Shown: piece by piece, positions 30,846 through 54,470 of the stretch
Position numbering within the stretch: the stretch's first letter is position 1
How the letters are laid out: each line of letters opens with the position of its first letter
NCBI RefSeq assembly: GCF_018860635.1
Contig: NZ_JAHKPT010000016.1
Span: forward strand, 1-57,884
Length of the DNA stretch: 57,884 nucleotides
Source: Aliiglaciecola lipolytica
GTDB lineage: Bacteria; Pseudomonadota; Gammaproteobacteria; Enterobacterales; Alteromonadaceae
Direction of reading: 5' to 3'
Notes under the pieces: model-generated
The model's database searches: none
Seen by the model: only the letters and a program-made list of their open reading frames with translations
Told to the model about the DNA's origin: nothing
Made by a program: the position numbers and the translations under genes

Positions 30846-32003
30846 CTATAAACACAATTCTCGCAATGGCAGGCTCGCTGCACCGACGGCGACAGGACAC
30901 TCTTGTACTCCAGCAGTAACTATTTTGGGAAGCGGTCTTTTTGCACCTCGTCGAAATTGAGCATAGACATCTATCCTTGGGATTAACTTTTCGGCCAAAG
31001 AAACGGGAATGTGACCTCCTAATACTATTGCTTGAGTATCTAATAACGCCGAACAGGCAGTTGCAACCAAGTCTAACGAATCTTGAACTTTATAGATCCA
31101 TTCTTCTACACCAGGCCAATTGACATCAAAGTTATTATGCAAATTATAAATAGAGTGGACTTCTACGTTGTTTTTTATCAGTATCCGTTTTAACAACGCA
31201 AGATTGGGATGAGAATATATTTTAGAAGGAAGCATGTCACCTAGCTCACCAGCGTTACCATATGTCCCGCGTAAGACTTCGTTATTCGACACCAGTCCAC
31301 CACCAAAGCCATAAGAAATGAAAAAATATACGAAGTTTTTATAATTTCGTCCAACTCCGGCGATTCCTTCACCAGCTGCAGCCCCTGTGGCATCATTAAC
31401 TACCCAGGTAGGTAACTTAAATCGCAAGGAAACGATTTGTGCTATATCGACTTGAGCCCATTCTTCAATCAAATGGTGCGTGTTCATTTTACCGTCCATA
31501 GCACTGAAAAAACCAGATATTCCTACCCCCATTCCCAGTACCTTCGACTCGTCGATATGATTAACTTTAATCAGATCATTCACAATTAGCTCAGACTGGG
31601 ATAATACGTTTTCAATACTCATGTCTTTTAGCTCTTGAAGACGTGTATCAACCACATTTCCTGCAAAGTCCATTAACGCGATGCCCACAGCGTCTAATAA
31701 AATTGATAAGCCAAAGCAATAAGCAAAAGTTGGGTTAGGTTCCAACTCAAAACTAGGGTTACCCCTTGATGATGAAGATATTCGGTCGGTTTGTAAAAGT
31801 ACGCCTTTTTCCAATAAGTTTTTAACTAATCGTGAAACAGACTGTTGCGGTATCTTGGTGGCATCGACTATCGTTCTTTGGTTTACATTTTTAGACCAAA
31901 ATACCAATTTAAGCACATCTCTTTCATTGTCCTGAAATAACTTCCCACCTTTACCTAGTTTAAAACTATTTCTTAGATAAACCCCGTTTTTAGAAGAAAG
32001 CAT
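30846..32003 (-). CDS. ROK-family transcriptional regulator (NagC/Mlc-like), zinc site lost
   Basis: This 385-residue protein has an N-terminal winged HTH (about 28-85: NQRTIVDATKIPQQSVSRLV) and a C-terminal ROK sugar-binding domain (VNDATGAAAGEGI, FFISYGFGGGLVSNNEVLRG). The usual GEIGH is GELGD here, and the CxCGxxGC zinc loop is absent, so it differs from Mlc/NagC. The kinase-type N-terminal phosphate loop is also missing, which fits a regulator. It is divergent from the TonB receptor gene of the sugar locus and probably represses it in the absence of the sugar. AAGG precedes the ATG. Confidence 0.85.
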   Translation of the reverse strand: MLSSKNGVYLRNSFKLGKGGKLFQDNERDVLKLVFWSKNVNQRTIVDATKIPQQSVSRLVKNLLEKGVLLQTDRISSSSRGNPSFELEPNPTFAYCFGLSILLDAVGIALMDFAGNVVDTRLQELKDMSIENVLSQSELIVNDLIKVNHIDESKVLGMGVGISGFFSAMDGKMNTHHLIEEWAQVDIAQIVSLRFKLPTWVVNDATGAAAGEGIAGVGRNYKNFVYFFISYGFGGGLVSNNEVLRGTYGNAGELGDMLPSKIYSHPNLALLKRILIKNNVEVHSIYNLHNNFDVNWPGVEEWIYKVQDSLDLVATACSALLDTQAIVLGGHIPVSLAEKLIPRIDVYAQFRRGAKRPLPKIVTAGVQECPVAVGAASLPLRELCL

Positions 32004-32420
32004 GTGCGACCTTATTTTTGATTTTAGTACTTATCATAATACAAGAAATTCGGAAAAGTTAGGCTCCGAAAGAAGTCTCGACTCTACTAAAGTTTGTAAT
32101 TTATTGGCAAGGGCTAAGATTAAATATCTTGCAGATATTAACTAACTTATTTTTTTATACCGCTAGTTTACGCTAATTACTGAATTATTATCCTTAAAAT
32201 TCAATGGTTTTAGTTTCTCCACTAACAACCCATATTAATTTTTACATATTGTTATGAGTTAAAAAAACACATAAAAATAAATAAATTATATTTTTACAAC
32301 CCAAAAAGGGTTGTTGTTGTGTTTTTTTTATGTTCAAATATTAACAAGTACGCTACATAACATTAATAATTTGATTGAACTACGCACTTTGTAGTCTGCA
32401 ACTACACTGGAGAAATACTA
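32004..32420. other. Divergent regulatory region of the sugar locus
   Basis: This 417-base, very AT-rich region separates the ROK gene and the TonB receptor gene. It holds the inverted repeat at 32296-32314, described separately, and no plausible gene. A tentative receptor promoter is TTGTGT (32317-32322) and TATTAA (32339-32344), 16 bases apart. That would put the inverted repeat immediately upstream of the -35. Confidence 0.35.
32296..32314. promoter_or_regulatory. Operator-like inverted repeat, probable ROK binding site (copy 1)
   Basis: The perfect repeat is ACAACCCAAAAAGGGTTGT: 7-base arms with a 5-base A spacer. It lies 107 bases upstream of the TonB receptor ATG. A second copy with the same core and spacing is at 37915-37929 in front of the hydrolase operon. 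Two copies bracketing one pathway next to a repressor gene make a shared operator the best explanation. Confidence 0.65.
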
Positions 32421-34862
32421 ATGAAAATGACACCCATAGCTTGCGTTTTATCCATGGCTTTTACTGCGACAATATCAGCTCAGGAAAATGCTAACGATAC
32501 TAATGCTGATGTTGAAAAAATAATCGTAACTGGCTCTAGCGTTGCTCGAACAGAAGCCGATACACCAGCGAAAACCACGTTGATAAACAAAGAAAATATA
32601 GCCAATACAGGGTTTTCTAGCCAAGCTGATATTTTAATGAGTGTACCCGGTATTAAAGTTGAAGGTGGTGGCGGAGAAGTGGCTACAAATGCATTTGTAA
32701 GAGGGTTGCCATCTGGTGGTCAATTTCAGTTCACACCGCTAAATTATGATGGAATGCCAGCTTTTCAATCCGGTATGACTTCTTCTGCACAGGATGTCTA
32801 TTATCGCCCTGATATCGGCATCGAACGTGTAGAGTACGTAGGCGGTGGAGTTTCCAATTTATTCGGACCAGGTTCAGTGGCAGGTATTATAAATTACATT
32901 TCTCGCAAAGGTAGCGATGACCCAGAGAGCACCATTCAACTGGAAATAGCTGAAGATGGCAGAATCAGAACAGATTTTTTTAATAGCGGAGCACTGTCTA
33001 GCGACGATAATATATATTACGCATTGTCTGGTTTCTATCGTTACGATGAAGGTCCTTTAGATACCGGATTACCTACAAAAGGCTATCAAATCAGAGGGAA
33101 TATTCGAAAAGAATTTGATGATGGTTTTATTACATTTCACGGTCAAATGATAAATGACAAAGTTCAGTTTTTCTTACCGCTACCTCTTGATGGAGCGAGC
33201 CGCGATAGGCTTATTGGCAATGATGGTTCTACCGTCTTTGTAGGGCAAACTGTAGCCGCCGCTGAACTAAGCTACCCAACCGCCAATGGTCAATATGAAT
33301 CACCGATTCGCGATGGTGTATCTACAGAAGGTGGCTCGTTTGGTGTTGATTTTGAAAAAGAACTTACTGATAGCTGGCGTATCGCAGGTAAAGCGAAAGC
33401 CGCTAGCTATGATCATCAGTTTAACCTGTTCCTAGACGGAGATGGTATTGCTAATTCGCCAGAGCCTCTTGATGGATATATAAATAATTCTGCCAGAACA
33501 ATTAATGGTGATGTATTAAGTGCGCTAGGAACAGCTAATTTTACTTGGTCAGAAACTGGATCAGCAGTGCCAGAGGATTATTTGTTATTTGGTAACCGTT
33601 TACTTGATCGACAGCGTGATGGTGATTTTTTTAGTACTGAATTCAACTTAACAGGTGAGCTAGAGGGTGGTGGTTTTGACCATACCGTCAACATAGGTAC
33701 CTTTTTCATTCATGCTCAACAGATGGATTACAACATCATATCAAGTTACCTAGCTGATTTCAGTAATGGCAAAAATGCGCGATTAGTAGACCTTTCCTTT
33801 ACTAACGCAAGTGGTGAAACGGTAATGTATTCCAGAAACGGTGTCATTGGACCGGGCACTAGTTACACTAACAAAGATTTGACCAGTAAACGCACGGCCT
33901 TTTATATCACCGATCAAATGGAAAACGAAAGTTGGGCGTTTGATGTAGGTATGAGAATAGAACGCGCAGTGGGGACATCCAAATCAGAAGGTAGTGAAGT
34001 AGTAGTGGTTTCAGATGATCCAAGCTTAGCACCTAATTTGCAAGTGAATACTACCGGTAACGGCAAGTTCACCTATGGTGAGGTCTCTACCACTGAAGCT
34101 GCATTTTCTGCCGCATTACTTTATAAAATGGAAGACAGTGATTTAAACCTATATGCAAACGCCTCTAAAGGTTATTTCTTCCCACAAATCAGAAGTATTA
34201 CCTTTGATCCTAACGGAGAGCCACAAAGCTACGAAGGTGAAGATATTACACTGGGTGCAATCGGCTTTAAATATTTCCCTAAAGATTTATACATTGACGC
34301 TTCATTGTTCATTGCAAATTTGGACAACAGACGATCAGTTGATTTTGAAAATGACGGCTCGGGAGGACTTATAGAACTCGTAAAAACACAATCAACTGAA
34401 ACCATAGGGGCTGAAGTCATTGGTCGTTATAACTTATCTGATGAAATCGTTGTTGAAGGTAATGTTACTTATCAAGATGCTGAATTTACTGAAGGTAATG
34501 ACACAGGAAAAGTGCCTAGAAGACAACCTGAGTTCACCGGTAATTTAGCCGTTTCTTATAACAACGGATTTGTCGATTCAAGATTAGCACTTAGTTACTT
34601 TGGTGACGCATACGCTAATGACGATAATTCAGTCGAGTTGGATAGCCATACAATTGCTACATTTAACGCTGGATATACTTGGGAACTTAACAATGACCAA
34701 CGGATCCGTGTGGGCGTGAATGTGTGGAACTTGTTTGATAACGAAGGAATTACAGAAGGCTCACCAAGACAAGGTAACAGTCAGGTTTCTGGTGGCGAAT
34801 TTTTCGTTGGTAGACCTGTGTTGCCAAGACGCATCAGCTTAACAGCCAGATATGATTTCTAA
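32421..34862 (+). CDS. TonB-dependent outer membrane receptor
   Basis: This 813-residue outer membrane receptor has a signal peptide (cleavage near ISAQE), a TonB-box-like segment EKIIVTGSS, a plug domain (TPAKTTLINKENI, ADILMSVPGIKVEGGGGE, NAFVRGLPSGGQF) and a C-terminal beta-barrel ending in phenylalanine (RRISLTARYDF). It imports a solute too scarce or too large for porins, using TonB energy. Its place at the head of a mannosylglycerate-type locus suggests that substrate or a derivative, but barrel sequence does not give specificity. GGAGA lies 7 bases before the ATG. Confidence 0.92.
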   Translation: MKMTPIACVLSMAFTATISAQENANDTNADVEKIIVTGSSVARTEADTPAKTTLINKENIANTGFSSQADILMSVPGIKVEGGGGEVATNAFVRGLPSGGQFQFTPLNYDGMPAFQSGMTSSAQDVYYRPDIGIERVEYVGGGVSNLFGPGSVAGIINYISRKGSDDPESTIQLEIAEDGRIRTDFFNSGALSSDDNIYYALSGFYRYDEGPLDTGLPTKGYQIRGNIRKEFDDGFITFHGQMINDKVQFFLPLPLDGASRDRLIGNDGSTVFVGQTVAAAELSYPTANGQYESPIRDGVSTEGGSFGVDFEKELTDSWRIAGKAKAASYDHQFNLFLDGDGIANSPEPLDGYINNSARTINGDVLSALGTANFTWSETGSAVPEDYLLFGNRLLDRQRDGDFFSTEFNLTGELEGGGFDHTVNIGTFFIHAQQMDYNIISSYLADFSNGKNARLVDLSFTNASGETVMYSRNGVIGPGTSYTNKDLTSKRTAFYITDQMENESWAFDVGMRIERAVGTSKSEGSEVVVVSDDPSLAPNLQVNTTGNGKFTYGEVSTTEAAFSAALLYKMEDSDLNLYANASKGYFFPQIRSITFDPNGEPQSYEGEDITLGAIGFKYFPKDLYIDASLFIANLDNRRSVDFENDGSGGLIELVKTQSTETIGAEVIGRYNLSDEIVVEGNVTYQDAEFTEGNDTGKVPRRQPEFTGNLAVSYNNGFVDSRLALSYFGDAYANDDNSVELDSHTIATFNAGYTWELNNDQRIRVGVNVWNLFDNEGITEGSPRQGNSQVSGGEFFVGRPVLPRRISLTARYDF

Positions 34863-34881
34863 CTAAATTACGAATGCGTTC

Positions 34882-34907
34882 AGAGCGCTCGATAATTCGA
34901 GTGCTCT
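34882..34907 (+). terminator. Hairpin after the TonB receptor gene
   Basis: AGAGCGCTCGA (34882-34892) pairs with TCGAGTGCTCT (34897-34907) around TAAT, with one G-T pair. It lies 20 bases after the stop codon. No long T-run follows, so it may be a weak terminator or an mRNA-stabilising hairpin that lowers expression of the following symporter. Confidence 0.5.
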
Positions 34908-34973
34908 ATTTAGCAGGTTTAAGATCATTCTGAGTCGAACCTACCTTTAAATTACAAGTTAAGTTGTGCAAAT

Positions 34974-36554
34974 ATGAATACTTTTGATTACGCCATTGTT
35001 GTTATATACCTTGTATTGCTTGTTGCTATGGGATTTAGCTTTCGCCAACAGAATACTAAAGACGATTATTTTTTAGGTGGTCGAACCTTGGGGTGGAAAG
35101 CACTGACCTTGTCGGTGATGGCTACTCAACTTTCTGCTATCAGTTTTGTATCAGCCCCTGCATTTGTTGGTCTACGAGAGGGTGGAGGGTTGCAGTGGTT
35201 ATCATATGAGTTGGGTGTTCCGCTAGCAATGCTGCTCATTTTAAGTACTATTTTACCGGCTCTATACCGTTCAGGGTTTGTCAGTATTTACGATTATCTA
35301 GAGCAACGTTTTGGTCGCTCAACCCGAATTTTAATTAGTTTCGTGTTTCAGTTTAGTCGCGCGTTTGCTACCGGAATAATGATTTTTGCTGCATCACTTA
35401 TTCTGCAAGGTACCATGGGAATCGAAGCTTGGCAGGCGATTGCATTAACCGGTGTGATAACGGTTTTGTACTCGTTGCAAGGTGGAATGAAAGCTGTGGT
35501 TTACGGTGACGCCATACAAATGATTATTATTGTTTTGGGCACTATTGCTTGTATAGTATTTGGCCTGCATTACCTTGGAGGGGTGGATGAATTCGTTAAT
35601 AAAGTTGATCCTGCACGGTTAAACGCGATAAAGCCTGATTCCTTTGGATTTGATGGTGAAGGTTTTGGATTGTTACCAATGATATTTGGTGGATTCGTAC
35701 TCTACGCATCTTACTACGGCTGTGATCAGACCCAAGCTCAACGGGCATTGGCCGCTTCAAGTACACGAGACTTAAGATATATGATGCTGGCGAATGCGAC
35801 TGTGCGTTTTCCGATTACACTACTTTATTGTTTTTCCGGTCTAATTGTCGGTACTTTGGCGATGACTGATACCGGTTTCATGGCACAAATTTCCGCTGAA
35901 AATCCAGATTGGATGATGCCTCTTTTCATTCTAAATTACCTGCCTCATGGCATGATTGGTATATTGGTTGTGGCTATATTAGCTGCAGCTATGTCGTCAT
36001 TAAGCTCTGCAATAAATTCTTTAGCAGCGGTGAGTATTGAAGATTATTGCCGTATTACAGGTAAAAAACTTGAGCCCAAAGAATATTTAAAGAAAGCAAA
36101 ATATGTTGGTCTGATTTGGGGAGCCGTCACCTTGGCTTTATCTTTCTACGCAGGCGACATAGCGCCAACCGTAATTGAAGCAATAAATAAGGTCGGTTCA
36201 GTGTTTTACGGTCCTATTTTAGCTGTATTCCTGTTAGCTGTTGTGGACAAAAGTTTAGGTGCACGTGAAATTAACATTGGTCTTATTGCAGGTGTATTAA
36301 TCAATATTATTGTTTGGTTAACAATGGACAATGTATTTTGGTTCTGGTGGAACTTTATCGGCTTCATTGTCGCGTCTTTAATGGCATATATTGTAAAAAT
36401 GTTGATTGGTGGCAGTTATAAATCCCCCGTGCCAAGTATAGAAAAAAGCTTAGAGAAAGTATCTATTTTGACTAAGTCCGACATCATTATATTGTTAAGT
36501 TCGTTCATTATCATGTTGGCTATTTGTGCCTACATTCCAACATTATTCGCATAG
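34974..36554 (+). CDS. Sodium:solute symporter (SSF family)
   Basis: This 526-residue inner membrane protein has about 13 helices and the SSF pattern (YFLGGRTLGWKALTLSVMATQLSAISFVSAPAFVGL read in blocks; VVAILAAAMSSLSSAINSLA). It is sodium-driven. It lies between the receptor and the glycerate kinase gene, so it most likely takes up the locus substrate from the periplasm. The start has no clear ribosome site. The 15-base gap to the glycerate kinase gene suggests co-transcription. Confidence 0.9.
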   Translation: MNTFDYAIVVIYLVLLVAMGFSFRQQNTKDDYFLGGRTLGWKALTLSVMATQLSAISFVSAPAFVGLREGGGLQWLSYELGVPLAMLLILSTILPALYRSGFVSIYDYLEQRFGRSTRILISFVFQFSRAFATGIMIFAASLILQGTMGIEAWQAIALTGVITVLYSLQGGMKAVVYGDAIQMIIIVLGTIACIVFGLHYLGGVDEFVNKVDPARLNAIKPDSFGFDGEGFGLLPMIFGGFVLYASYYGCDQTQAQRALAASSTRDLRYMMLANATVRFPITLLYCFSGLIVGTLAMTDTGFMAQISAENPDWMMPLFILNYLPHGMIGILVVAILAAAMSSLSSAINSLAAVSIEDYCRITGKKLEPKEYLKKAKYVGLIWGAVTLALSFYAGDIAPTVIEAINKVGSVFYGPILAVFLLAVVDKSLGAREINIGLIAGVLINIIVWLTMDNVFWFWWNFIGFIVASLMAYIVKMLIGGSYKSPVPSIEKSLEKVSILTKSDIIILLSSFIIMLAICAYIPTLFA

Positions 36555-36569
36555 GAGAATAAAATCAAA

Positions 36570-37820
36570 ATGAATAACTCGCGCGCTTTTTTATTCTCAT
36601 TATTTGAAACAGCCGTTCATGCTTGCCTTCCAAGTGTTTGCTTAGATAAGCATCTTGATCACATAGATACCAGTCGTGGAGTATGCGTAATCGGCGCTGG
36701 CAAAGCTTCAGCTGACATGGCCGCAGCTGTTTTTAAAAAATATGGCGATGCTTGCTATGGAAAAGTAGTTACTCGCTATGGTTATGGTACTGAATTGGCA
36801 ACAGGTAATATTGAGATTTTATATGCTTCACATCCTGTTCCAGATAAAAATAGTTTGTTAGCAGGTAAAGCATTACTTGAATTGGTTGCACAGACTCCGC
36901 CGGATATTCCTATTATATTTTTGATTTCTGGAGGCGGTTCGGCATTAATGTCTATTCCTGTGGAAGGGGTAAGTTTTGCAGACAAAATGGAATTACATCG
37001 GTTCTTATTAAGAAGTGGCGCTTCAATCGATGAGATGAATGTCGTTCGCAAACAACTGTCAGCTGTTAAAGGGGGCAAACTTGCAGAAGCTGCAAAAAGC
37101 ATTAGCCATACTTATGTAATTTCCGATGTGGTTGGAGATGATCCTAGCCTAATTGCTTCTGGGCCAACAGTGAAAGACAACAGCACAGCAGAGCTAGCAT
37201 TAACAATACTGGAAAAATACAATTGGCAGCCGATTGATTCAATTTATCAATTTTTAACTAAGGCTATCAAGTCAAAATGCATTACACCTCCTTCGAATAC
37301 AAGCCATTATACTGTTGTAGCAAATGCGCACCAAGCCATCGATGCTGCAGTTGCTAAAGCAAAAAATGCTGGCTGGGAGACACACGTACTCAATTATGAA
37401 CAGCAAGGTGAAGCATCCAGGATTGCTAAAGAACATGCTGCTATAGCGTTGAAATTTAGAGATGATGGAAAAAAAGTTTTGCTTTTTTCAGGTGGAGAAT
37501 TAACCGTTACCATTGACAGTGCTACCGGTGATGGCGGACCAAATCAGGAATATTTACTCGCGATGGCTATTGCTTTGGACGGTGCATCAGGAATATCGGT
37601 ATTGTCCTGTGATTCTGACGGTGTCGATGGTAGCAAAGACATTGCGGGTGGTTTCATTGATGAATCCACATTGACTACCGCTAAATCAAAAGGGCTATCC
37701 CCTCAATCCTATCTAGCAAACCATGACAGTTTTCATTTTTTACAAGCGGTTGGTGGGTTGATAATCACTGGGCCGACTCGGACTAACGTCAATGATTTTA
37801 GAGTCATCATGATCAATTAA
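36570..37820 (+). CDS. Type II glycerate 2-kinase (DUF4147/MOFRL family)
   Basis: This 416-residue kinase makes 2-phospho-D-glycerate from D-glycerate and ATP. Family blocks are VCVIGAGKASADMAAAVF, ASHPVPDKNS, FLISGGGSALMSIP, VRKQLSAVKGGKLAEAA, VISDVVGDDPSLIASGPTV and the C-terminal MOFRL part (LLFSGGELTVTI, GGPNQEYLLAMAI, DSDGVDGSKDIAGG). AGGAG lies 12 bases upstream. Next to a sugar-glycerate hydrolase its role is clear: it brings the glycerate half into lower glycolysis. Confidence 0.93.
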   Translation: MNNSRAFLFSLFETAVHACLPSVCLDKHLDHIDTSRGVCVIGAGKASADMAAAVFKKYGDACYGKVVTRYGYGTELATGNIEILYASHPVPDKNSLLAGKALLELVAQTPPDIPIIFLISGGGSALMSIPVEGVSFADKMELHRFLLRSGASIDEMNVVRKQLSAVKGGKLAEAAKSISHTYVISDVVGDDPSLIASGPTVKDNSTAELALTILEKYNWQPIDSIYQFLTKAIKSKCITPPSNTSHYTVVANAHQAIDAAVAKAKNAGWETHVLNYEQQGEASRIAKEHAAIALKFRDDGKKVLLFSGGELTVTIDSATGDGGPNQEYLLAMAIALDGASGISVLSCDSDGVDGSKDIAGGFIDESTLTTAKSKGLSPQSYLANHDSFHFLQAVGGLIITGPTRTNVNDFRVIMIN

Positions 37821-37914
37821 GGGCCGATATAAATCGTCCTGTATTCGAATTTAATAGATTCAAAATCAAATAGGTAGACACAGATTTTTAAAGTTAAAAA
37901 ATTTTGCAATATTA

Positions 37915-37930
37915 AACCCAAAATGGGTTG
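37915..37930. promoter_or_regulatory. Operator-like inverted repeat, probable ROK binding site (copy 2)
   Basis: AACCC (37915-37919) and GGGTT (37925-37929) flank AAAAT. The core AACCCAAAAWGGGTTGTT is shared with copy 1 at 32296-32314. It lies about 70 bases upstream of the hydrolase GTG start, so the hydrolase-kinase-isomerase genes probably have their own promoter under the same regulator. Confidence 0.6.
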
Positions 37931-37999
37931 TTAAGATTGGTCTAATAGCGGATAATTAAATTATATTAACTCAATATGGTTTGGGTGGGAGAGTATAAA

Positions 38000-39274
38000 G
38001 TGACAGAAGATAAACAATTATTTAATGCCGGTGCAGATATCTTAAAAAAGAACGACTTCGGTGGATACACAGTTCCTACCCAAGGACTTTATCCTTTCCA
38101 ATGGAACTGGGATTCAGCGATTACGGCCTTAGGTTGGTTAAAATTTGATGAACCAAGAGCTTGGCAAGAACTGGAAGTGTTAATCAGTGGGCAATGGGAT
38201 GATGGAATGATCCCGCACATATTATTTCATCGAGATTCAGATACTTATTTTCCTGGTCCTGATGTTTGGGGATCGGATAAAAAAGTTAAAAGCACTTCAA
38301 TTTCACAACCGCCTGTACTGGCTACGATTGTGAAGATTCTGTGTGATGAAGTGAAAGATAATGATCTTAAAAATGAAAAATTAAAGGAAATGTTGCCAAG
38401 TTTAATACGATATCACTTGTGGTGGTATCGAGACAGAGATCCTGAATCTACCGGATTGGTAGCAAGTTATCATCCGTGGGAATCAGGTATGGACAATAGT
38501 CCAGCGTGGGATAAAACGCTTGATGCGGTTCCACAAGTAACTTGGGAGTATCAACGTCGAGATCTTAATCATATTGACGCAGCTGAAAGACCGCACAAAG
38601 AACAATATGACAGATACCTTTATCTAGTTGAGTTTTTCAAAAATAATCAATTCGATAGCGCTAAAATTTATCGTGATTGCCCGTACAAAGTAAATGATGT
38701 CAGTCTAATCTCGATACTTCATCGAGCTACATTGGATTTACTTGAAATCTGTCAACAATTGCATGTGGTTGATGATGAAGTTCAAGAGTTAAAAGCTAGA
38801 GCAGCGTTGACGGAAAGTGCAATAAGCCAACTATGGTGTGAAGAAACAAAGTTCTTTTATAGTCGAGATCTTATGACTGATTCGCTTTGTAAAATTAAAA
38901 CCAACGCTGGTTTTCTGCCTTTATTTGGACAACTGGCAAGTATTGAACAGGCCAAATATTTAGCTGAAGAAGCACAGGCGTGGATGGCCGCTAGTCCTTA
39001 CGCTATAGCCTCAACAGATCCAAGAGAATCAAAATATGAACCTCAACGTTACTGGCGCGGCCCCGTTTGGCTGCACATTAATTGGATGATAGCGTTAGGA
39101 CTCGAATTTTACCAGTTTGAGCAAACATCGAGTCAAGTGAAACAAAAAACCAATGAACTGTTTAGAAAGTTTAAGTTTTATGAATATTTTAATGCTGATA
39201 CTGGGGTAGGTTGCGGTGGAAATGACTTTTCCTGGACTGCTGCGATAGCAATGTATTGGTTGTTAGACTTATGA
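38000..39274 (+). CDS. GH63 glycosidase, probable mannosylglycerate/glucosylglycerate hydrolase
   Basis: This is an (alpha/alpha)6-barrel glycosidase of 424 residues. Family blocks are GLYPFQWNWDSAITALGW, WDDGMIPHILFH, the likely catalytic acid in YHPWESGMDNSPAWD (Asp about 165), PQRYWRGPVWLHINWM, and the C-terminal GGNDFSWTAAI. This layout and compact length fit bacterial mannosylglycerate hydrolases of GH63, which release sugar plus D-glycerate, rather than large eukaryotic processing glucosidases. There is no signal peptide, so it is cytoplasmic. GTG 38000 with GGGAGA 7 bases upstream is preferred over ATG 37976. Trehalase-like or other alpha-glucoside substrates cannot be excluded. Confidence 0.75.
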   Translation: MTEDKQLFNAGADILKKNDFGGYTVPTQGLYPFQWNWDSAITALGWLKFDEPRAWQELEVLISGQWDDGMIPHILFHRDSDTYFPGPDVWGSDKKVKSTSISQPPVLATIVKILCDEVKDNDLKNEKLKEMLPSLIRYHLWWYRDRDPESTGLVASYHPWESGMDNSPAWDKTLDAVPQVTWEYQRRDLNHIDAAERPHKEQYDRYLYLVEFFKNNQFDSAKIYRDCPYKVNDVSLISILHRATLDLLEICQQLHVVDDEVQELKARAALTESAISQLWCEETKFFYSRDLMTDSLCKIKTNAGFLPLFGQLASIEQAKYLAEEAQAWMAASPYAIASTDPRESKYEPQRYWRGPVWLHINWMIALGLEFYQFEQTSSQVKQKTNELFRKFKFYEYFNADTGVGCGGNDFSWTAAIAMYWLLDL

Positions 39275-40284
39275 AGCCTGTCAGCCAAGCAGGGAAAGTC
39301 ATTTGTTTCGGCGAAGCGCTTATAGATATGCTCTCCAATAAAGTGGCAAATTCGATTGAAACAGAAAATGAAACCTTTACTAAATTTGCAGGTGGTGCAC
39401 CAGCGAATGTTTCAGTTGCTTTGGCTAAATTAGGCGGCAATAGTTATTTCTGTGGAATGCTTGGCAAGGACCCTTTTGGAACCTTCTTGTTTGATTCTCT
39501 AAAAACTCAACATGTAAAAACTGATTATGTTTTGTTTACTGAAAAAGCAAAAACTGCAATAGCATTTGTATCCTTGGATGAGCAGGGAGAAAGGACTTTT
39601 TCATTTTATCGACCACCTTCAGCTGACTTGTGTTTTGCCTGTCGCGATTTTGATAAACAATGGTTTACGGAAACAAGGATTTTTCATTTTTGTTCTAATA
39701 GCTTAACTGAATCAGACATTTTAGACACAACAAAGTATGGCGTTTCTTTAGCTCGGCAACACGGTGCTCTGATTAGTTTCGATGTTAATTTACGTGAGAA
39801 CTTATGGCCCGTAAATGCCGATCCTTTTGGGGTTATTTGGTCCATGATAAGGGATATTGATGTTCTTAAAATTTCCCTCGAAGAATTAACTTTTTTGTGT
39901 GGGAAAAACCAGCAAAAACAGACTATTGAAAAACTTCTACAACGACGCTGCAAGCTTATTGTCATTACCGATGGTGGCAATAATTTACAATGGATATCTC
40001 AAACATCTCACGGCGAGATCGCGCCGCCAGTCGTAGAGACCATTGATGCAACGGCTGCAGGAGACGCCTTTATCGGAGGGCTATTATTTAAGCTGCAATA
40101 TCACATCGATAATGTAGCAAGTTTTGAGGATTTACTGAACAACCCCATTGAATTAAATAGCGTGCTTCGATTTGCTTCAGCATGCGGAGCTCATGCTGCT
40201 TCGAAATATGGAGCTTTTCCTTCTTTACCCTCTATATCTACTCTTGAATTGCTAACAAAAGAGATAAATTATGAACTTTCCTGA
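39271..40284 (+). CDS. PfkB-family sugar kinase, probable fructokinase
   Basis: This 337-residue protein has the fructokinase-type start KVICFGEALIDMLSN, the KFAGGAPANVSVALAKLGG block, and the C-terminal ATP-site motif DATAAGDAFIGGLLF with the catalytic aspartate. It should phosphorylate fructose (or a related sugar) at C6. Its ATG overlaps the hydrolase stop as ATGA, so an upstream in-frame start at 39256 is not used. Its 3' end overlaps the isomerase gene by 14 bases. Confidence 0.85.
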   Translation: MKPVSQAGKVICFGEALIDMLSNKVANSIETENETFTKFAGGAPANVSVALAKLGGNSYFCGMLGKDPFGTFLFDSLKTQHVKTDYVLFTEKAKTAIAFVSLDEQGERTFSFYRPPSADLCFACRDFDKQWFTETRIFHFCSNSLTESDILDTTKYGVSLARQHGALISFDVNLRENLWPVNADPFGVIWSMIRDIDVLKISLEELTFLCGKNQQKQTIEKLLQRRCKLIVITDGGNNLQWISQTSHGEIAPPVVETIDATAAGDAFIGGLLFKLQYHIDNVASFEDLLNNPIELNSVLRFASACGAHAASKYGAFPSLPSISTLELLTKEINYELS

Positions 40285-41473
40285 TTTCAGCCAAGCCAGT
40301 TTTTTACGTCAACATATTCGCAGTATCTTGGATTTCTATGAACCAAATGTGGAGGATCCTCATGGTGGCTTCTATCAGAACTTTCTAGATGACGGAAAGG
40401 TATATGATCACCAGACTCGTCACCTGGTAAGTTCAGCACGATTTGTTTTCAATTACGCTAGGGCTTTTTTAGAGTTTAATGACCCTAAATACCTGAAAAG
40501 GGTTAATTCAGGTATCGAATTTATTCGCAATGCGCACTTTAATCCTCAATTTAAAAGTTATGGTTGGTTGCTAAACGTAGAACAAGGGAAAGTCGAAACA
40601 AAGGATGACAATAACCACTGTTATGGTTTTGCATTTGTAATGCTAGCCTACAGTTGGGCAATTAAAGTGGGTCATTCAAAAGCCGAGGAGTATCTTGAAG
40701 AAACATGGTCGACTATGGAGCGGGTATTTTGGGATGCCGATAATTTATTATATAAAGATGAATTTGATGGCACATTGAGTAAAGATTCCGGTTATCGAGG
40801 ACAAAATGCCAATATGCATACCTGTGAAGCACTAATCGCTGCTTATCACGCAACCAGTAAACAAAAGTTTTTAGATAGAGCGATGATACTGGCTGACAGT
40901 ATTGTTAATAGACAGGCTGCACTAACCAATGGATTTATTTGGGAGCATTTTCATCGGGATTGGACTGTGGATTTGGAATATAACCAAGATGATCCCAAAA
41001 ATCTTTTTCGTCCATGGGGGTTTCAACCCGGCCATCAAACAGAATGGGCCAAATTATTGTTGATGCTTTATCAACTCACTAACAAACCTTGGTTGTTAGA
41101 ACGCGCCCAACAATTATTTACAAGAACCTTAGCAATTTCATGGGATGAAAAAAATAAGGGTATCGCTTATGGGTTTGATTTGCAGAATAAGATCTGTGAT
41201 GGCGAAAAGTACTTTTGGGTGCAAGCTGAATCATTCGCTGCCGCTGCTTATTTATATGCACACACTAAAAAGCAAGAATATCTGCACTGGTACCAAAAGA
41301 TTTGGCAGTATTCATGGGAACACATGGTTGATCATAAATATGGAGCTTGGTTTAGGATCTTGAGCAATGACAACCAAAAGCTTGAAAATACCAAAAGTCC
41401 GATAGGTAAGACTGATTATCACACTATGGGAGCTTGTTATGATGTTCTTTCACTTAGACTTTCAGATAGCTGA
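40271..41473 (+). CDS. AGE-family sugar isomerase, probable mannose isomerase
   Basis: This 400-residue (alpha/alpha)6-barrel protein of the N-acylglucosamine 2-epimerase family has the blocks DPHGGFYQNFLDDG, NANMHTCEALIAAYHA, RPWGFQPGHQTEWAKLL, FWVQAESFAAAAYLY and the C-terminal KTDYHTMGACYDVL. The histidines in PGHQTEW and MHTCEA are at usual catalytic places. The family includes mannose isomerase, cellobiose 2-epimerase and renin-binding proteins. Translational coupling to a fructokinase favours conversion of mannose to fructose. It is the last gene of the operon. Confidence 0.8.
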   Translation: MNFPDFSQASFLRQHIRSILDFYEPNVEDPHGGFYQNFLDDGKVYDHQTRHLVSSARFVFNYARAFLEFNDPKYLKRVNSGIEFIRNAHFNPQFKSYGWLLNVEQGKVETKDDNNHCYGFAFVMLAYSWAIKVGHSKAEEYLEETWSTMERVFWDADNLLYKDEFDGTLSKDSGYRGQNANMHTCEALIAAYHATSKQKFLDRAMILADSIVNRQAALTNGFIWEHFHRDWTVDLEYNQDDPKNLFRPWGFQPGHQTEWAKLLLMLYQLTNKPWLLERAQQLFTRTLAISWDEKNKGIAYGFDLQNKICDGEKYFWVQAESFAAAAYLYAHTKKQEYLHWYQKIWQYSWEHMVDHKYGAWFRILSNDNQKLENTKSPIGKTDYHTMGACYDVLSLRLSDS

Positions 41474-41770
41474 ATAGAAGTGTGACGACCAACAGTGTTT
41501 GTTTAAGATGGATGTTGAATTAACGGGAAAGTTAATGCCGTAACCAACTATTGGCTAATAATTTTTAATAGTTTGGATTTCTTTAATGCAATAGATAGTT
41601 ATCCCGGGCATGTTTTTTTACCTATTTACTGCTATTCATCGCACTGACAAGTAGCTCATTTTTAGCCTTGTTGTTGGTCGTATTTTTTCTGTTACTAACA
41701 GATTTAAACTTTTTACACTATCAAAGCGACTTATAGTTAACGGTACGTTAATTATGTAAAAGTTTTGTGT
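41474..41770. other. Intergenic region between the sugar operon and the RND pump
   Basis: No gene is seen. A weak hairpin (CCAACTATT at 41544-41552 with AATAGTTTGG at 41567-41576) might end the sugar operon. A pump promoter was not identified. Confidence 0.3.
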
Positions 41771-48332: not shown

Positions 48333-50405
48333 ATGAGAGAGTACAATAATAAAAAATCTAGTTTTACGGGTCGTAAATTGCTATTGGCTTCGTCAATTAT
48401 CTTTGCATGCCAAACGCTTCATGCTCAGGAATTAGAACGGATCACAGTAAGTGCCCAATACAAAGAAGAAGATTTACAGACAGTTCCCATTGCGATTACG
48501 GCATTGAATGAAGAAGAAATCGAATTGCGTAATATGACTGACGCGCTTTCGATTGGTGAAGCTGTACCTAATATTTACATTGCTAAAAATGTTGGTTCAG
48601 CAAGTGGTATGAAAGTATTCCTTCGAGGTATCGGAGAAGACGAATCTCGTGTGGGGGTTGATCCTGCGGTAGGTATTTATGTGGATGGTGTTTATATTGG
48701 TCGTCAGACAGGGGCATTGTTAGATTTAGCGGATATTGAATCTATAGAAGTATTGCGTGGCCCTCAAGGAACACTATATGGTCGAAACTCCAATGGTGGT
48801 GCAATCAGAGTCACCACTAAACAACCGAGTATTTCAGATCGAACTATTTTAAAAATGTCATTGGGTTCAGATCAATTAACCGATGGTTATTTAATGGTCA
48901 ACAAAGGTCTAACAGACAAGCTAGCCGGTCAAGTGTCAGTATTCAGTAAAAGTCGTCGTGGATTCATAAAAAACACAGATAACGGCGAATACCTAGGTGA
49001 TGTAGACAAACTAGGGGCGCGTGTAGCGCTTGCTTACTATGGCGATGTTTGGGATTTATCTTGGTCAGCAGATTTCATGAGAGATAACTCAGAACCTGGT
49101 TACTCCTCGTTAGTGCTAGACGATGATGGTGATATATTCACCATTAATCAAGCTGAGTTTCCAACAAGTGGGTTAGTTAATGGTGAAACAGAGTTGGGTG
49201 AATATTATAATCACTTATATCAAAGCGGCACCAGTTTTAAAGCACACCGTACCTTTGGCAATGAAATTTCGTTTGATTCAATCACCTCTTACAGACGTTT
49301 AGATCAAAGAATGTTAACCATTGTAACTTTGCCTTTCTTTCAAGACGTTCATCAAAACCAGATGAGTCAAGAATTTAGATTTGCTAAAGACGCTGAAGAT
49401 TACAGTTGGGTTACAGGTGTTTATTTATTCCGCGAAGAAGCCGATCAGTATACTGAATTTGTTTTCGGTGGTGCAGATATCGACTTGTTAACTGAATCGG
49501 CTGGTTTGTTTGGTCAATATACATATAACGTATCTGACAAGTTACATGTGACTGGTGGTGTTCGTTATACGTGGGAACAAAAAGATTTTGATGCCGCACC
49601 AACTGCAGATTATTGGAGTTCACTTGGTCAAGCAAATGCTGGGCTACAAAGTGATCAATGGGGTAAATTCTCATGGAAAGGGGTAGTTTCATACGATGTA
49701 AATGACGATATGATGACTTACGCATCGATAACCACTGGTTTCAAATCAGGTGGTTGGTCACCAGATAGTTTTGACCCAGTACAAGAAGAGTCGGTAATTA
49801 CTTATGAAATGGGTATGAAAAGCGATTTATCTAAATCTTTCCGTTTAAACGTAACTGCTTTTTTCAACGATTATACCGATTTACAAACCAGTGGTTCAAC
49901 CGCTAATGGCTTTACCCGAATTAATGCGGGTGACGTAGAAACTTACGGTATTGAAACCAATATTACATGGCAAGCTACGGAAGATTTAACCATAGATGCA
50001 TTTGTTGGATTGTTAGAAGCTAAGTATGTTTCACTTACTGAAGAAGCAACATTCTTTGTTGAAGAAGACTTTGATTTAAAACAGGCGCCACCAGTTAGTT
50101 ATGGTGTTAACTTCAACTATGTTAAAGAAGTAGGTGATGGTCAACTAATTTACAATGTGCAATATGCGTATACAGATGATCAGTATAACGATTTAGCTAC
50201 AACTGAACTTATTAAGCGCGAAGCAACGGACATTTTAAATGCGCGAGTAGCTTACAAGTGGGGTACAGACATAGAGTACAATGTTGCATTATGGGCTAAA
50301 AACGCACTGGACGAAGAGTTCGCTGCATCAGGCACTACCGGTAATTTAGCCATATATCCTGGTGACCCTAGAACCTTCGGAATAGACTTTTCAATAAACT
50401 ATTAA
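48333..50405 (+). CDS. TonB-dependent outer membrane receptor
   Basis: This 690-residue receptor has a signal peptide (KLLLASSIIFACQTLHAQ), TonB-box-like ELERITVSAQ, a plug with EDLQTVPIAITALNEEEIE, the IEVLRGPQGTLYGRNSNGGAI motif, and a barrel ending RTFGIDFSINY. The plug resembles receptors typical of marine Alteromonadales and sphingomonads. The substrate is unknown; it could belong with the uronate locus downstream. GGGAA lies 7 bases before the ATG. Confidence 0.92.
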   Translation: MREYNNKKSSFTGRKLLLASSIIFACQTLHAQELERITVSAQYKEEDLQTVPIAITALNEEEIELRNMTDALSIGEAVPNIYIAKNVGSASGMKVFLRGIGEDESRVGVDPAVGIYVDGVYIGRQTGALLDLADIESIEVLRGPQGTLYGRNSNGGAIRVTTKQPSISDRTILKMSLGSDQLTDGYLMVNKGLTDKLAGQVSVFSKSRRGFIKNTDNGEYLGDVDKLGARVALAYYGDVWDLSWSADFMRDNSEPGYSSLVLDDDGDIFTINQAEFPTSGLVNGETELGEYYNHLYQSGTSFKAHRTFGNEISFDSITSYRRLDQRMLTIVTLPFFQDVHQNQMSQEFRFAKDAEDYSWVTGVYLFREEADQYTEFVFGGADIDLLTESAGLFGQYTYNVSDKLHVTGGVRYTWEQKDFDAAPTADYWSSLGQANAGLQSDQWGKFSWKGVVSYDVNDDMMTYASITTGFKSGGWSPDSFDPVQEESVITYEMGMKSDLSKSFRLNVTAFFNDYTDLQTSGSTANGFTRINAGDVETYGIETNITWQATEDLTIDAFVGLLEAKYVSLTEEATFFVEEDFDLKQAPPVSYGVNFNYVKEVGDGQLIYNVQYAYTDDQYNDLATTELIKREATDILNARVAYKWGTDIEYNVALWAKNALDEEFAASGTTGNLAIYPGDPRTFGIDFSINY

Positions 50406-51459: not shown

Positions 51460-52467
51460 CTAAATCTGTTTACAGGACAACCTTTTAATCAACGAGCAGG
51501 GGATCATTATCTTCTCTGACGATGGCTCTTTATTGTTGATGTTGTTCAACAATAACTTAGTCGCTTGTCGACCTATTTCATAAGGATTTTGAGTAATTAC
51601 TGTGATGGGGACTTTAAAGAAGTCGGCCATAGGAATGTCATCAAAACCTAAAATCGACACGTCATCGGGAATAGATATATTTTCGGCATTCAACGCAGTT
51701 AATATATCTGTGGTAATCGCCAGATGTTGAGTGAAAAACACAGTTGGTGGATTATCTGCATCTAGTAAGCTGGTGGGGGAGTGTTCAAATCCAGTTTCAC
51801 GGCGCCAATACTGAATGAGTTGTTCATCGAGTGGAATACCATGTTTTTGCAGCGCATCAGAATATCCTAAATAACGATCTTTTCGTGATTTAACATGTTT
51901 AAAATCTTGAGTGACAAAACAAATTCGCTTATGGCCTAATTGTATTAGGTACTCAGTTGCCTCAAAAGCCGCTTTTCGATAATCAGATATAATGATATTT
52001 TTTTCATTACCATCATGTTCAAGTTGAAAATGCACGATCGGTAAGCCACCGTCACTGTATCTATTGATTAAATCAGTATTCTTTCCCGACGAAGCGATAA
52101 TAATGCCATCAACCCGCAGTTGGTATAATGTCTCTAATGATTTCGCTTCAACTTTTGGATCTACGTCAGTGTTATAAATTAATAAATTGTACTCACTGGT
52201 TTTACAAAAATCGTCAATTCCTCGAATGGTACGGCTCGTATAGAAACCTGTTATGTCCCTAACTATCACCCCAATGGTTTTTGTCTTATTCATTTTCAGG
52301 CTACGAGCAATAGGGTTAGGCACATAATCCAATTCGCTAACGGCTATTTTTATCCGTTCCTTTGTCTTTTCAGACATGTAGTCGAAACGGCCATTTAAGT
52401 ACTGAGAGACAGTACTATTTGACACCCCAGCTCGTTCAGCCACATCAATGAGTTTAGTTTTTGCCAT
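51460..52467 (-). CDS. LacI-family transcriptional regulator
   Basis: This 335-residue repressor has an N-terminal LacI HTH (LIDVAERAGVSNSTVSQYLNGR), the hinge helix ELDYVPNPIARSLK, and a periplasmic-binding-protein-like sensor domain (TIGVIVRDITGFYT, ILGFDDIPMADFFKVPITVI). It is divergent from the symporter-lyase-kduD operon, with two AAACG-centred operator-like sites between them, so it probably controls that operon and itself in response to a uronate intermediate. Confidence 0.92.
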   Translation of the reverse strand: MAKTKLIDVAERAGVSNSTVSQYLNGRFDYMSEKTKERIKIAVSELDYVPNPIARSLKMNKTKTIGVIVRDITGFYTSRTIRGIDDFCKTSEYNLLIYNTDVDPKVEAKSLETLYQLRVDGIIIASSGKNTDLINRYSDGGLPIVHFQLEHDGNEKNIIISDYRKAAFEATEYLIQLGHKRICFVTQDFKHVKSRKDRYLGYSDALQKHGIPLDEQLIQYWRRETGFEHSPTSLLDADNPPTVFFTQHLAITTDILTALNAENISIPDDVSILGFDDIPMADFFKVPITVITQNPYEIGRQATKLLLNNINNKEPSSEKIMIPCSLIKRLSCKQI

Positions 52468-52537
52468 TTAAATATTTCTTGAAAGGTTCTGATTAGTCGA
52501 ATATTGACATTCTGCAACAATATGTTAACTTAATCAA

Positions 52538-52562
52538 CTAAACCGTTTTAGTAAAACGTTTT
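52538..52562. promoter_or_regulatory. Two adjacent LacI-type operator-like sites
   Basis: CTAAACCGTTTTAG (52538-52551) is a near-palindrome and AAAACGTTTT (52553-52562) a perfect one. Both have the central CG and AAA/TTT flanks typical of LacI-family operators. Their centres are 13 bases apart. They lie about 50 bases before the symporter start and 70 bases before the regulator start. Confidence 0.65.
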
Positions 52563-52612
52563 TGTTTTTGTATCCTATTGATAATATTAGGCAATCTAAC
52601 AAGAGGCAAAAT

Positions 52613-54394
52613 GTGGAAATTTCTAATATTGAATACTTAGTCATCATTGGCTATTTAGCGTTGATTGTTATCGTTGGTTTTGTTTTTAAAAAATTCTCAG
52701 CTAATACCGATGACTATTTTAAAGGCGGTTGTAAGGGCACCTGGTGGCTTGTTGGTAGCAGTGCCTTCATGAGTGCTTTTAGTGCGTGGACCTTTACCGG
52801 TGCTGCTGGCATTGCTTACGAATCAGGATTTTCTGCGATGTTTATCTTCTTCGGTAACGTGCTGGGGTTCTTCGTAAACTTTTTGTTTATGGGCCCTTGG
52901 TTACGGCAAATGAGAGTGACAACATTTCCTGAGGCCATTGCCAGTCGCTTTGGTGAAACAACCCGTGATTTTTACGCCTATTATGAAGTGCCTATTCGTA
53001 TTTTGTATTCTGCTATGGCGCTGTATGGACTTGGCATTTTTTGTTCCGCAGTGTTTGGTTATGACATCAACTATGTGATTGTAGTCTGCGGTGTCGTTGT
53101 ACTGCTTTATTCTGCTACCGGCGGACGTTGGGCTGTGATGGCCACTGACTTTCTGCAAGGATTAATCCTCGTTCCTTTAACTTTAATCGTTGCTTGGTTG
53201 TGTTTGGACGCCCTAGGTGGAATCAACAATTTGTTTGCTGAGATTGAGGCGCAAGGTTTAACCGAAGAATACAGTATGGTCAATTCTGCGACCTTATTTG
53301 GAGGGGCTTATACTTGGGGCTGGGCGAGCGCAATGATGGCCAAACAATTCATCGTTTTCAATTCCATGAATGCAGCACCAAGATACTTTTCGGTAAAAGA
53401 TGGGCGAGAAGCGCGCAAAGCCGCTTTGTTCTGCTCAATATTAATGTTGTTAGGTAGCTTAATTTGGTTTTTACCCCCAATCACCGCACGACTTTTATAC
53501 CCTGAACTTGTTATGGCATTTGATATAGCTAAGCCCGCTGAAGCGAGTTATGCGGTTGCCAGTATCAGCTTATTACCTGTGGGGCTAGTAGGGTTGATCG
53601 TGGTCGCTATTTTAGCGGCAACTATGAGCTCAATGGATACTGGCTTAAATACCAACGTGGCGATTTTGATAAAAGATATTTATCCCAAGGTCTCACGCAA
53701 ATTACGCTGGCAATCTAAAGGCGAATCAGAGCTTTTAAATTATGGCCGCACCTTAACTTGGGTTATGGGTTTCTTAATTGTACTTTTGGCGCTTTATTTT
53801 GCCCAACAAGATGGTTCTGGGATATTCGAAATCATGTTGCAAGTGGGCACGTTGTTGTCGATGCCAATTACGATTCCACTATTATTGGGCATGTTTATAC
53901 GGCAAACACCTTGGTGGGCAGCGCTTTTATCTATCGCCTGTGCGTTGCTATTTTCTTGTTTAGCTTTCTTCGAAGTTCCTTTGAGCTACTTAGGGTTTTC
54001 GCAGTCTTATAGCGATGCCTTTGAATGGAATTTTCAACAACAATTTTTTGGTGTGTTAGGTACAGGCACATTTGGCTTTTTGGTATCTATGCTATTTGCA
54101 CCAGCTTCGAATTCCGCCCATCGGAAAATGGTAGATAGGTTCTTTAAAAATATGAAAACCCCCATCGATTTTGAAAAGGAAATAGGTGAGGGGAATGATC
54201 TTAGCCAATTAACCGCTATTGGCCAGTTTGGCGCGGCAGTAACAGGATTCATCGCCTTAATGTTGATAATTCCTAATCCGATAGAAGGCAGAATAGCGAT
54301 ACTGGTACTTGCGCTAATAATAGGAGCAATCAGTGTCTTAATGCTAAAAGCCGGTAAGCCGCCCGCAGCCGAGATTAAATCAGTAGCACCGTAA
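52613..54394 (+). CDS. Sodium:solute symporter (SSF family)
   Basis: This 593-residue symporter has about 14 helices. It shows DDYFKGGCKGTWWLVGSSAF, FTGAAGIAYESGFSAM and VVAILAATMSSMDTGLNTNV, typical of SSF proteins in uronate or oligosaccharide loci. The GTG at 52613 with AAGAGG 6 bases upstream is preferred over an in-frame TTG at 52562, which falls in the operator. It probably imports unsaturated or intact uronate oligosaccharides for the cytoplasmic lyase encoded next. Confidence 0.9.
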   Translation: MEISNIEYLVIIGYLALIVIVGFVFKKFSANTDDYFKGGCKGTWWLVGSSAFMSAFSAWTFTGAAGIAYESGFSAMFIFFGNVLGFFVNFLFMGPWLRQMRVTTFPEAIASRFGETTRDFYAYYEVPIRILYSAMALYGLGIFCSAVFGYDINYVIVVCGVVVLLYSATGGRWAVMATDFLQGLILVPLTLIVAWLCLDALGGINNLFAEIEAQGLTEEYSMVNSATLFGGAYTWGWASAMMAKQFIVFNSMNAAPRYFSVKDGREARKAALFCSILMLLGSLIWFLPPITARLLYPELVMAFDIAKPAEASYAVASISLLPVGLVGLIVVAILAATMSSMDTGLNTNVAILIKDIYPKVSRKLRWQSKGESELLNYGRTLTWVMGFLIVLLALYFAQQDGSGIFEIMLQVGTLLSMPITIPLLLGMFIRQTPWWAALLSIACALLFSCLAFFEVPLSYLGFSQSYSDAFEWNFQQQFFGVLGTGTFGFLVSMLFAPASNSAHRKMVDRFFKNMKTPIDFEKEIGEGNDLSQLTAIGQFGAAVTGFIALMLIIPNPIEGRIAILVLALIIGAISVLMLKAGKPPAAEIKSVAP

Positions 54395-54470
54395 TTCAAA
54401 TTATGGCGCTCATTTACTCTAAGAATTGCAATTTATTAACGATTATGACTTTTGAATACAGGGATTAACC

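Follow-up and report, generated by a model that had tools for sequence, protein, structure and literature searches.

A strain-variable locus of Aliiglaciecola lipolytica predicted to import and catabolize mannosylglycerate (digeneaside)

We analysed a stretch of 57,884 nucleotides of Aliiglaciecola lipolytica DNA (contig NZ_JAHKPT010000016.1), here called the window, and found at positions 30846-41473 a group of seven genes that we interpret, with a probability of roughly 0.8, as a dedicated regulon for the catabolism of mannosylglycerate (digeneaside). A sequence-only reading of the same DNA had proposed import of the glycoside, cleavage by a GH63-type enzyme and entry of both halves into central metabolism. 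This proposal is supported by solved homologues, by an active-site match and by the gene neighbourhood in 395 genomes, and it is further strengthened by the repeated pairing of the hydrolase with an isomerase and by a common palindrome.

The locus consists of seven uninterrupted open reading frames (ORFs), and a Pfam scan places the main family of each product above its curated cut-off. A ROK-family transcriptional regulator (30846-32003, minus strand; PF00480, 84 bits), the proposed local repressor, lies divergent from an operon on the plus strand whose genes, from receptor to isomerase, all run in one direction. These encode a TonB-dependent receptor (32421-34862; PF07715 plug, 54 bits), an SSF sodium/solute symporter (34974-36554; PF00474, 145 bits; TIGR00813, 215 bits for a cut-off of 184), a glycerate 2-kinase with DUF4147 and MOFRL domains (36570-37820; PF13660, 233 bits; PF05161, 119 bits), a predicted mannosylglycerate hydrolase (MgH) of GH63 type, or MGH1-like glycoside hydrolase (37976-39274; PF22422, 322 bits for a cut-off of 27, the match covering the full profile 1-356), a PfkB-family kinase with an ATG start that is a proposed fructokinase (39271-40284; PF00294, 185 bits) and a predicted D-mannose isomerase of the AGE family (40271-41473; GlcNAc_2-epim, PF07221, 336 bits). 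Order and positions are those given earlier, as are the overlaps of 4 bases between hydrolase and PfkB genes (ATGA, 39271-39274) and of 14 bases between PfkB and AGE genes (40271-40284). The hydrolase gene is present where it was placed; its longest ORF begins at 37976, so that the gene can start there and not at 38000.

In the proposed route, the anionic glycoside would reach the cytoplasm uncleaved through the receptor and the symporter, and the GH63-type hydrolase would split mannosylglycerate into D-mannose and D-glycerate. The AGE enzyme would convert free mannose to fructose, the PfkB kinase fructose to fructose-6-phosphate, and the MOFRL-type kinase glycerate to 2-phosphoglycerate. The palindrome AACCCNNNNNGGGTT is present in two copies, through which the divergent ROK protein would repress both the receptor, symporter and glycerate kinase genes and the hydrolase, PfkB and isomerase genes. 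The glycerate kinase together with the MgH-type hydrolase points to a glycosylglycerate substrate, for which the isomerase and PfkB kinase suggest the mannosyl form.

Compared with solved structures, the hydrolase scores 408 bits against 2z07/4wva and 195-203 bits against the glucosylglycerate hydrolase (GgH) chains of the mycobacterium Mycolicibacterium hassiacum, enzymes of the same family with which it shares 45 % and 31 % identity respectively. The first, 2z07 (TTHA0978), is with 4wva-c the Thermus thermophilus MgH (PMC6608630). We compared the 19 residues named in the accessible part of that paper, which include the catalytic Asp182/Glu419 and the contact residues. By alignment the window hydrolase is identical to Thermus MgH at all 19 sites, with D173 as the acid and E403 as the base, and is like wild-type GgH at 18 of 19. 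The sole difference is Phe418 in place of Gln434; the GgH letters in this alignment were taken from 6g3n, which itself has Phe at position 434. The 19 sites are also nearly invariant over 80 related loci, the best of at least 584 confirmed stretches (in 31 of these a contig end limits the length to less than 20 kb), with exceptions at sites 78 and 89 and, in one locus (L069), at site 115. Phe at position 434 is common to loci with and without the isomerase. Since the sites hardly vary in either case, they confirm a glycosylglycerate hydrolase and leave the sugar undecided. No signal peptide is apparent by eye at the N-terminus of the hydrolase. Elsewhere in the genome there is a second, distant PF22422 match (76 bits; L002, G000:C4:463256-464293).

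For the sugar end of the pathway, the AGE protein shares 51 % identity with 5x32, described as the D-mannose isomerase of Marinomonas mediterranea (PMC7762179), and 31 % with YihS; it probably works like a D-mannose isomerase, though its 222 bits to the NF051846 equivalog are below the cut-off of 600. The nearest solved structure to the PfkB product is 3ljs, named 'Fructokinase' (286 bits), and that to the glycerate kinase is 2b8n (257 bits). We found no match in the genome to the class I mannose-6-phosphate isomerase models PF20511 and PF01238; the latter models only the C-terminal part of the enzyme and PF20511, which has matches in 7 of 14 control genomes and in 0 of 1 here, was therefore added. 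Isomerising free mannose would thus be useful to this cell, but class II isomerases (PF01050) were not searched and the cell may therefore still interconvert mannose-6-phosphate. The isomerase-kinase pair is a recurring module: where the isomerase gene lies apart from any hydrolase gene, it adjoins a PfkB gene in 13 of 18 regions, picked by hand from the same family. The 13 regions with these neighbours and no hydrolase are L122-L129, L131, L133, L134, L137 and L138.

We then consider how tightly hydrolase and isomerase go together. Calling the hydrolase at E <= 1e-60, we found it in 24 of the 395 genomes of the family sample, and an isomerase homologue in 81. The isomerase is present in 23 of the 24 hydrolase-bearing genomes and in 58 of the 371 others (Fisher p = 1.8e-16, uncorrected for kinship), and the two genes lie within 1.05 kb of each other in 21 of the 24, which is not the case in G387, G358 and G460 (10.5 kb apart). 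In an order sample of 295 genomes the hydrolase occurs in 4, all with the isomerase, which is found in 21 overall; three of these 4 genomes belong to the family sample as well. In the 395 genomes, each of the 20 top-scoring isomerase matches, the window's own included, adjoins a hydrolase gene.

An isomerase tree of 40 rows indicates that this pairing has changed at least three times: four changes occur in the best tree and three are forced by well-supported branches. This tree was rebuilt from 44 rows by leaving out L141 (genes 10 kb apart), L135 (a duplicate of L014), a far outgroup and L064, which lowered the changes from five to four and left the forced ones at three. The window isomerase falls in a clade of 16 paired isomerases with support 100/99. 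The Pseudocolwellia and Woeseiaceae loci have isomerases from another, mostly unpaired clade, and three others fall apart from these.

The gene set is not a product of chance, because its six-gene core (ROK, receptor, SSF, glycerate kinase, hydrolase and isomerase) recurs together in 16 of the 80 fetched loci, seven of them with PfkB as well. These 16 belong to Paraglaciecola, Pseudoalteromonas, Alteromonas, Rheinheimera, Pseudocolwellia and a Kangiellaceae metagenome-assembled genome (MAG), and in them receptor and hydrolase are divergent, unlike the one-direction layout of the window. Three Paraglaciecola loci (L003, L006 and L008) encode receptors that share 81-86 % identity with that of the window. 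The importer differs in other loci: sphingomonad and Caulobacterales loci have a major facilitator superfamily (MFS) gene where SSF is missing (two loci scanned), and about 22-31 further loci share a set of four genes, which in the one scanned (L042) is an ATP-binding cassette (ABC) importer. In two loci from Woeseiaceae MAGs, the SSF and receptor genes are separated by an additional gene of the alpha-amylase family (L018:8558-10279 and L019:12857-14581). The L018 product is GH13_18-like, nearest to sucrose/glucosylglycerol phosphorylases, and is possibly a glucosylglycerate phosphorylase. A single stop within the aligned hydrolase stretch, which may be an artefact of where the match ends, was seen in L087, L088, L091 and L095 (G433, G533, G496 and G650).

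Alternatively, the locus may serve chiefly for glucosylglycerate, or for both glycosides to the same extent, in which case glucose would pass to a glucokinase while the isomerase and kinase serve another sugar or the mannosyl form only. Several observations weigh against our interpretation. As the sites hardly vary across the 80 loci, we rejected active-site residues as a test of the sugar, and the choice between mannosyl- and glucosylglycerate cannot be read from the hydrolase by itself; the accessible text of PMC6608630 describes mycobacterial GgH as hydrolysing both. Among NCBIfam models, the hydrolase scores best against the glucosylglycerate hydrolase NF047898 (334 bits, under the cut-off of 550). 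None of the four enzymes reaches its NCBIfam equivalog cut-off, the PfkB product scoring 222 bits against 450 for NF006957 and the glycerate kinase 220 against 550 for NF041176. In ten of the 80 loci the ROK, receptor, SSF and hydrolase genes are present and the fetched DNA contains no isomerase gene, and the three forced changes on the tree could be one gain and two losses. The alpha-amylase-family genes of the two Woeseiaceae loci also fit this alternative, as the GH13_18 group, according to the partial source at hand, includes glucosylglycerate phosphorylases. Against it stand the adjacency of isomerase and hydrolase in 21 of 24 genomes, their repeatedly changed pairing, the similarity of the window isomerase to a D-mannose isomerase above other solved structures, and the absence of any alpha-amylase-family member from the seven products scanned at the window locus. 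Taken together, we regard a glucosylglycerate or evenly mixed substrate as unlikely and mannosylglycerate as the better candidate, with glucosylglycerate as a possible second substrate.

It is conceivable that such loci are built as modules for the use of glycosylglycerates. A mobile core, made up of a ROK regulator, a TonB receptor, a transporter and a GH63-type hydrolase and in many cases a glycerate kinase, would be combined with exchangeable sugar-end modules (isomerase plus PfkB kinase, isomerase alone, a ROK-type kinase or a GH13_18-type phosphorylase). The downstream module, not the hydrolase, would then decide between mannosylglycerate, glucosylglycerate or both. We offer this generalization tentatively and put it at somewhat less than even odds.

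The locus also appears to have its own regulatory signal. The palindrome AACCCNNNNNGGGTT stands 5' of both the receptor and the hydrolase genes, and repeat and pattern searches delimit two proposed operators: AACCCAAAAAGGGTT in the ROK/receptor intergenic region (32298-32312) and AACCCAAAATGGGTT 5' of the hydrolase gene (37915-37929). According to the repeat search, the stretches before the two genes have AACCCAAAA(A/T)GGGTTGTT in common. The exact pattern AACCCNNNNNGGGTTGTT occurs in the 5.03-Mb genome at these two sites only; with one mismatch allowed there are 10 matches compared to 9 for the reversed control. As the pattern was derived from the window's two sites, the independent test lies in other genomes. 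In 17 gammaproteobacterial receptor/hydrolase intergenic regions the ten core bases are exact in six, have one mismatch in five and two mismatches in six. Single-base shuffles give p <= 0.017 for the 11 regions with at most one mismatch, seven of which come from Alteromonas or near kin and are thus not independent. The exact ten core bases are also found between ROK and receptor in Kordiimonas, an alphaproteobacterium.

Other regions are less favourable to a shared operator. The six two-mismatch palindromes are not significant singly (shuffle p 0.02-0.08), and 13 further regions give no support: two from Caulobacterales with four mismatches, two from sphingomonads with two mismatches (p about 0.09) and nine of Woeseiaceae/Pseudomonadales type with three mismatches each. 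We found no evidence that TTGTTA/GATAAT (37928-37956), at the second operator, is a sigma-70 promoter, with 29 promoter-like sites found compared to 33.6 expected. The ROK product matches the MarR_2 helix-turn-helix (HTH) model at 23.8 bits, under the cut-off of 27, and a ROK homologue is found in 29 clustered loci, which include the 16 core loci by definition.

Alternatively, the AACCC...GGGTT repeats may form RNA hairpins, acting as attenuator or terminator, instead of ROK operators. This explanation concerns regulation only and is compatible with the pathway proposed here. The upstream copy, in the ROK/receptor region, does score as terminator-like, but the second copy is absent from the list of such sites, other genera, as well as Kordiimonas, have the palindrome at the same position between divergent genes, and a palindromic DNA site suits a dimeric regulator. 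We therefore hold hairpins to be improbable and favour operators through which the ROK protein would repress the locus.

The locus is variable between strains. A genome of the same species (G436) is 99.5 % identical to the window up to base 30859 and again from base 41613, with 351 bp in place of the 10,753-bp segment at 30860-41612. The ROK ORF extends by its final 14 bases (30846-30859) into the common flank. Of the genus, 8 other genomes are listed, one of them 59 % complete, and the hydrolase, called as above, was found in none. The G+C content of the segment genes (0.388-0.412) can be read beside that of the flanks (0.388 and 0.404). We rejected a mobile-element signature at the segment borders, as no repeat pair joins them among those listed (20 of 42 direct families and 25 of 35 inverted pairs).

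Thermus MgH acts on the cell's own compatible solute. Mycobacterial GgH is described likewise in the accessible part of PMC6608630, but that the present locus recycles such a solute is very improbable, given its outer-membrane receptor and symporter, its absence from the same-species genome, and an own genome with no match to the PF09488 synthase and none over the cut-off to GpgS (a model that also matches in 14 of 14 controls, over the cut-off in one), all of which favours uptake of an external glycoside.

The rest of the genome fits, and does not show, contact with red algae. One GH16 protein is kappa-carrageenase-like (223 bits to 1dyp; 210 bits to the NCBIfam model, under the cut-off of 350). 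A second is distantly porphyranase-like, a reading that is weak as its best solved match is an unnamed GH16 (149 bits) and porphyranase A scores 45 bits. The two genes (L121 and L120, G000:C35:29932-48332) are about 18 kb apart. Two further GH16 proteins look like laminarinases, one by NCBIfam only (L118/L119, G000:C22, from about 125100), and one of their genes adjoins a GH149 beta-1,3-glucan phosphorylase gene, which is truncated where the fetched DNA ends. In the window itself, a TonB receptor (48333-50405) is followed at 51460-56534 by adjoining genes for a LacI regulator, an SSF symporter and a DUF4962/heparinase II/III-type protein, which looks like an alginate-oligomer or uronate locus.

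Dedicated mannosylglycerate catabolism is known from E. coli, where mngA-mngB act through phosphotransferase system (PTS) import and a GH38 hydrolase. The window locus would serve the same end with TonB/SSF import and a GH63-type hydrolase; neither a PTS transporter nor a GH38 hydrolase is among its seven Pfam-scanned products, the whole genome not having been searched for them. A GH38-type 'mannosylglycerate hydrolase' is annotated in Microbulbifer (PMC5501506, from partial text). In Shewanella, manI and manK are listed as newly assigned enzymes for mannosides in the table seen of PMC2996990. They may be compared with the isomerase-PfkB pair of the window, a comparison drawn from that listing and not from family or reaction; the window differs in joining the pair to a glycosylglycerate hydrolase, a glycerate kinase and an importer of its own.

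For marine bacteria, digeneaside-degradation genes have been reported in Maribacter by homology to Zobellia (PMC8072126), and digeneaside is named among further possible substrates of polysaccharide utilization loci (PULs) of North Sea Flavobacteriia (PMC6298971), both in the text accessible to us. These flavobacterial systems share the proposed substrate and ecological role, as judged from their descriptions and not from gene lists. The earlier claim, that no dedicated locus of this layout is known in a marine alteromonad, therefore has to be narrowed: in the titles and abstract openings covered, most subscription papers lying outside, we found none described for an alteromonad. What appears to be new here is the assembly of known enzyme families into a predicted importer plus a free-mannose route, with its own palindrome and with strain-level variability.

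Published work on bacteria that consume digeneaside appears to be scarce, little having been found. Red algae are a source of the compound, and most Ceramiales form it in place of floridoside (PMC8523428, as far as accessible); we infer that digeneaside from red algae is the natural source for this bacterium. If so, the hydrolase, the clade-specific isomerase and the palindrome would together provide a marker set for digeneaside consumption in marine genomes. The locus also offers a natural presence/absence genome pair within one species, and its products are candidate mannosylglycerate-active enzymes from a marine alteromonad.

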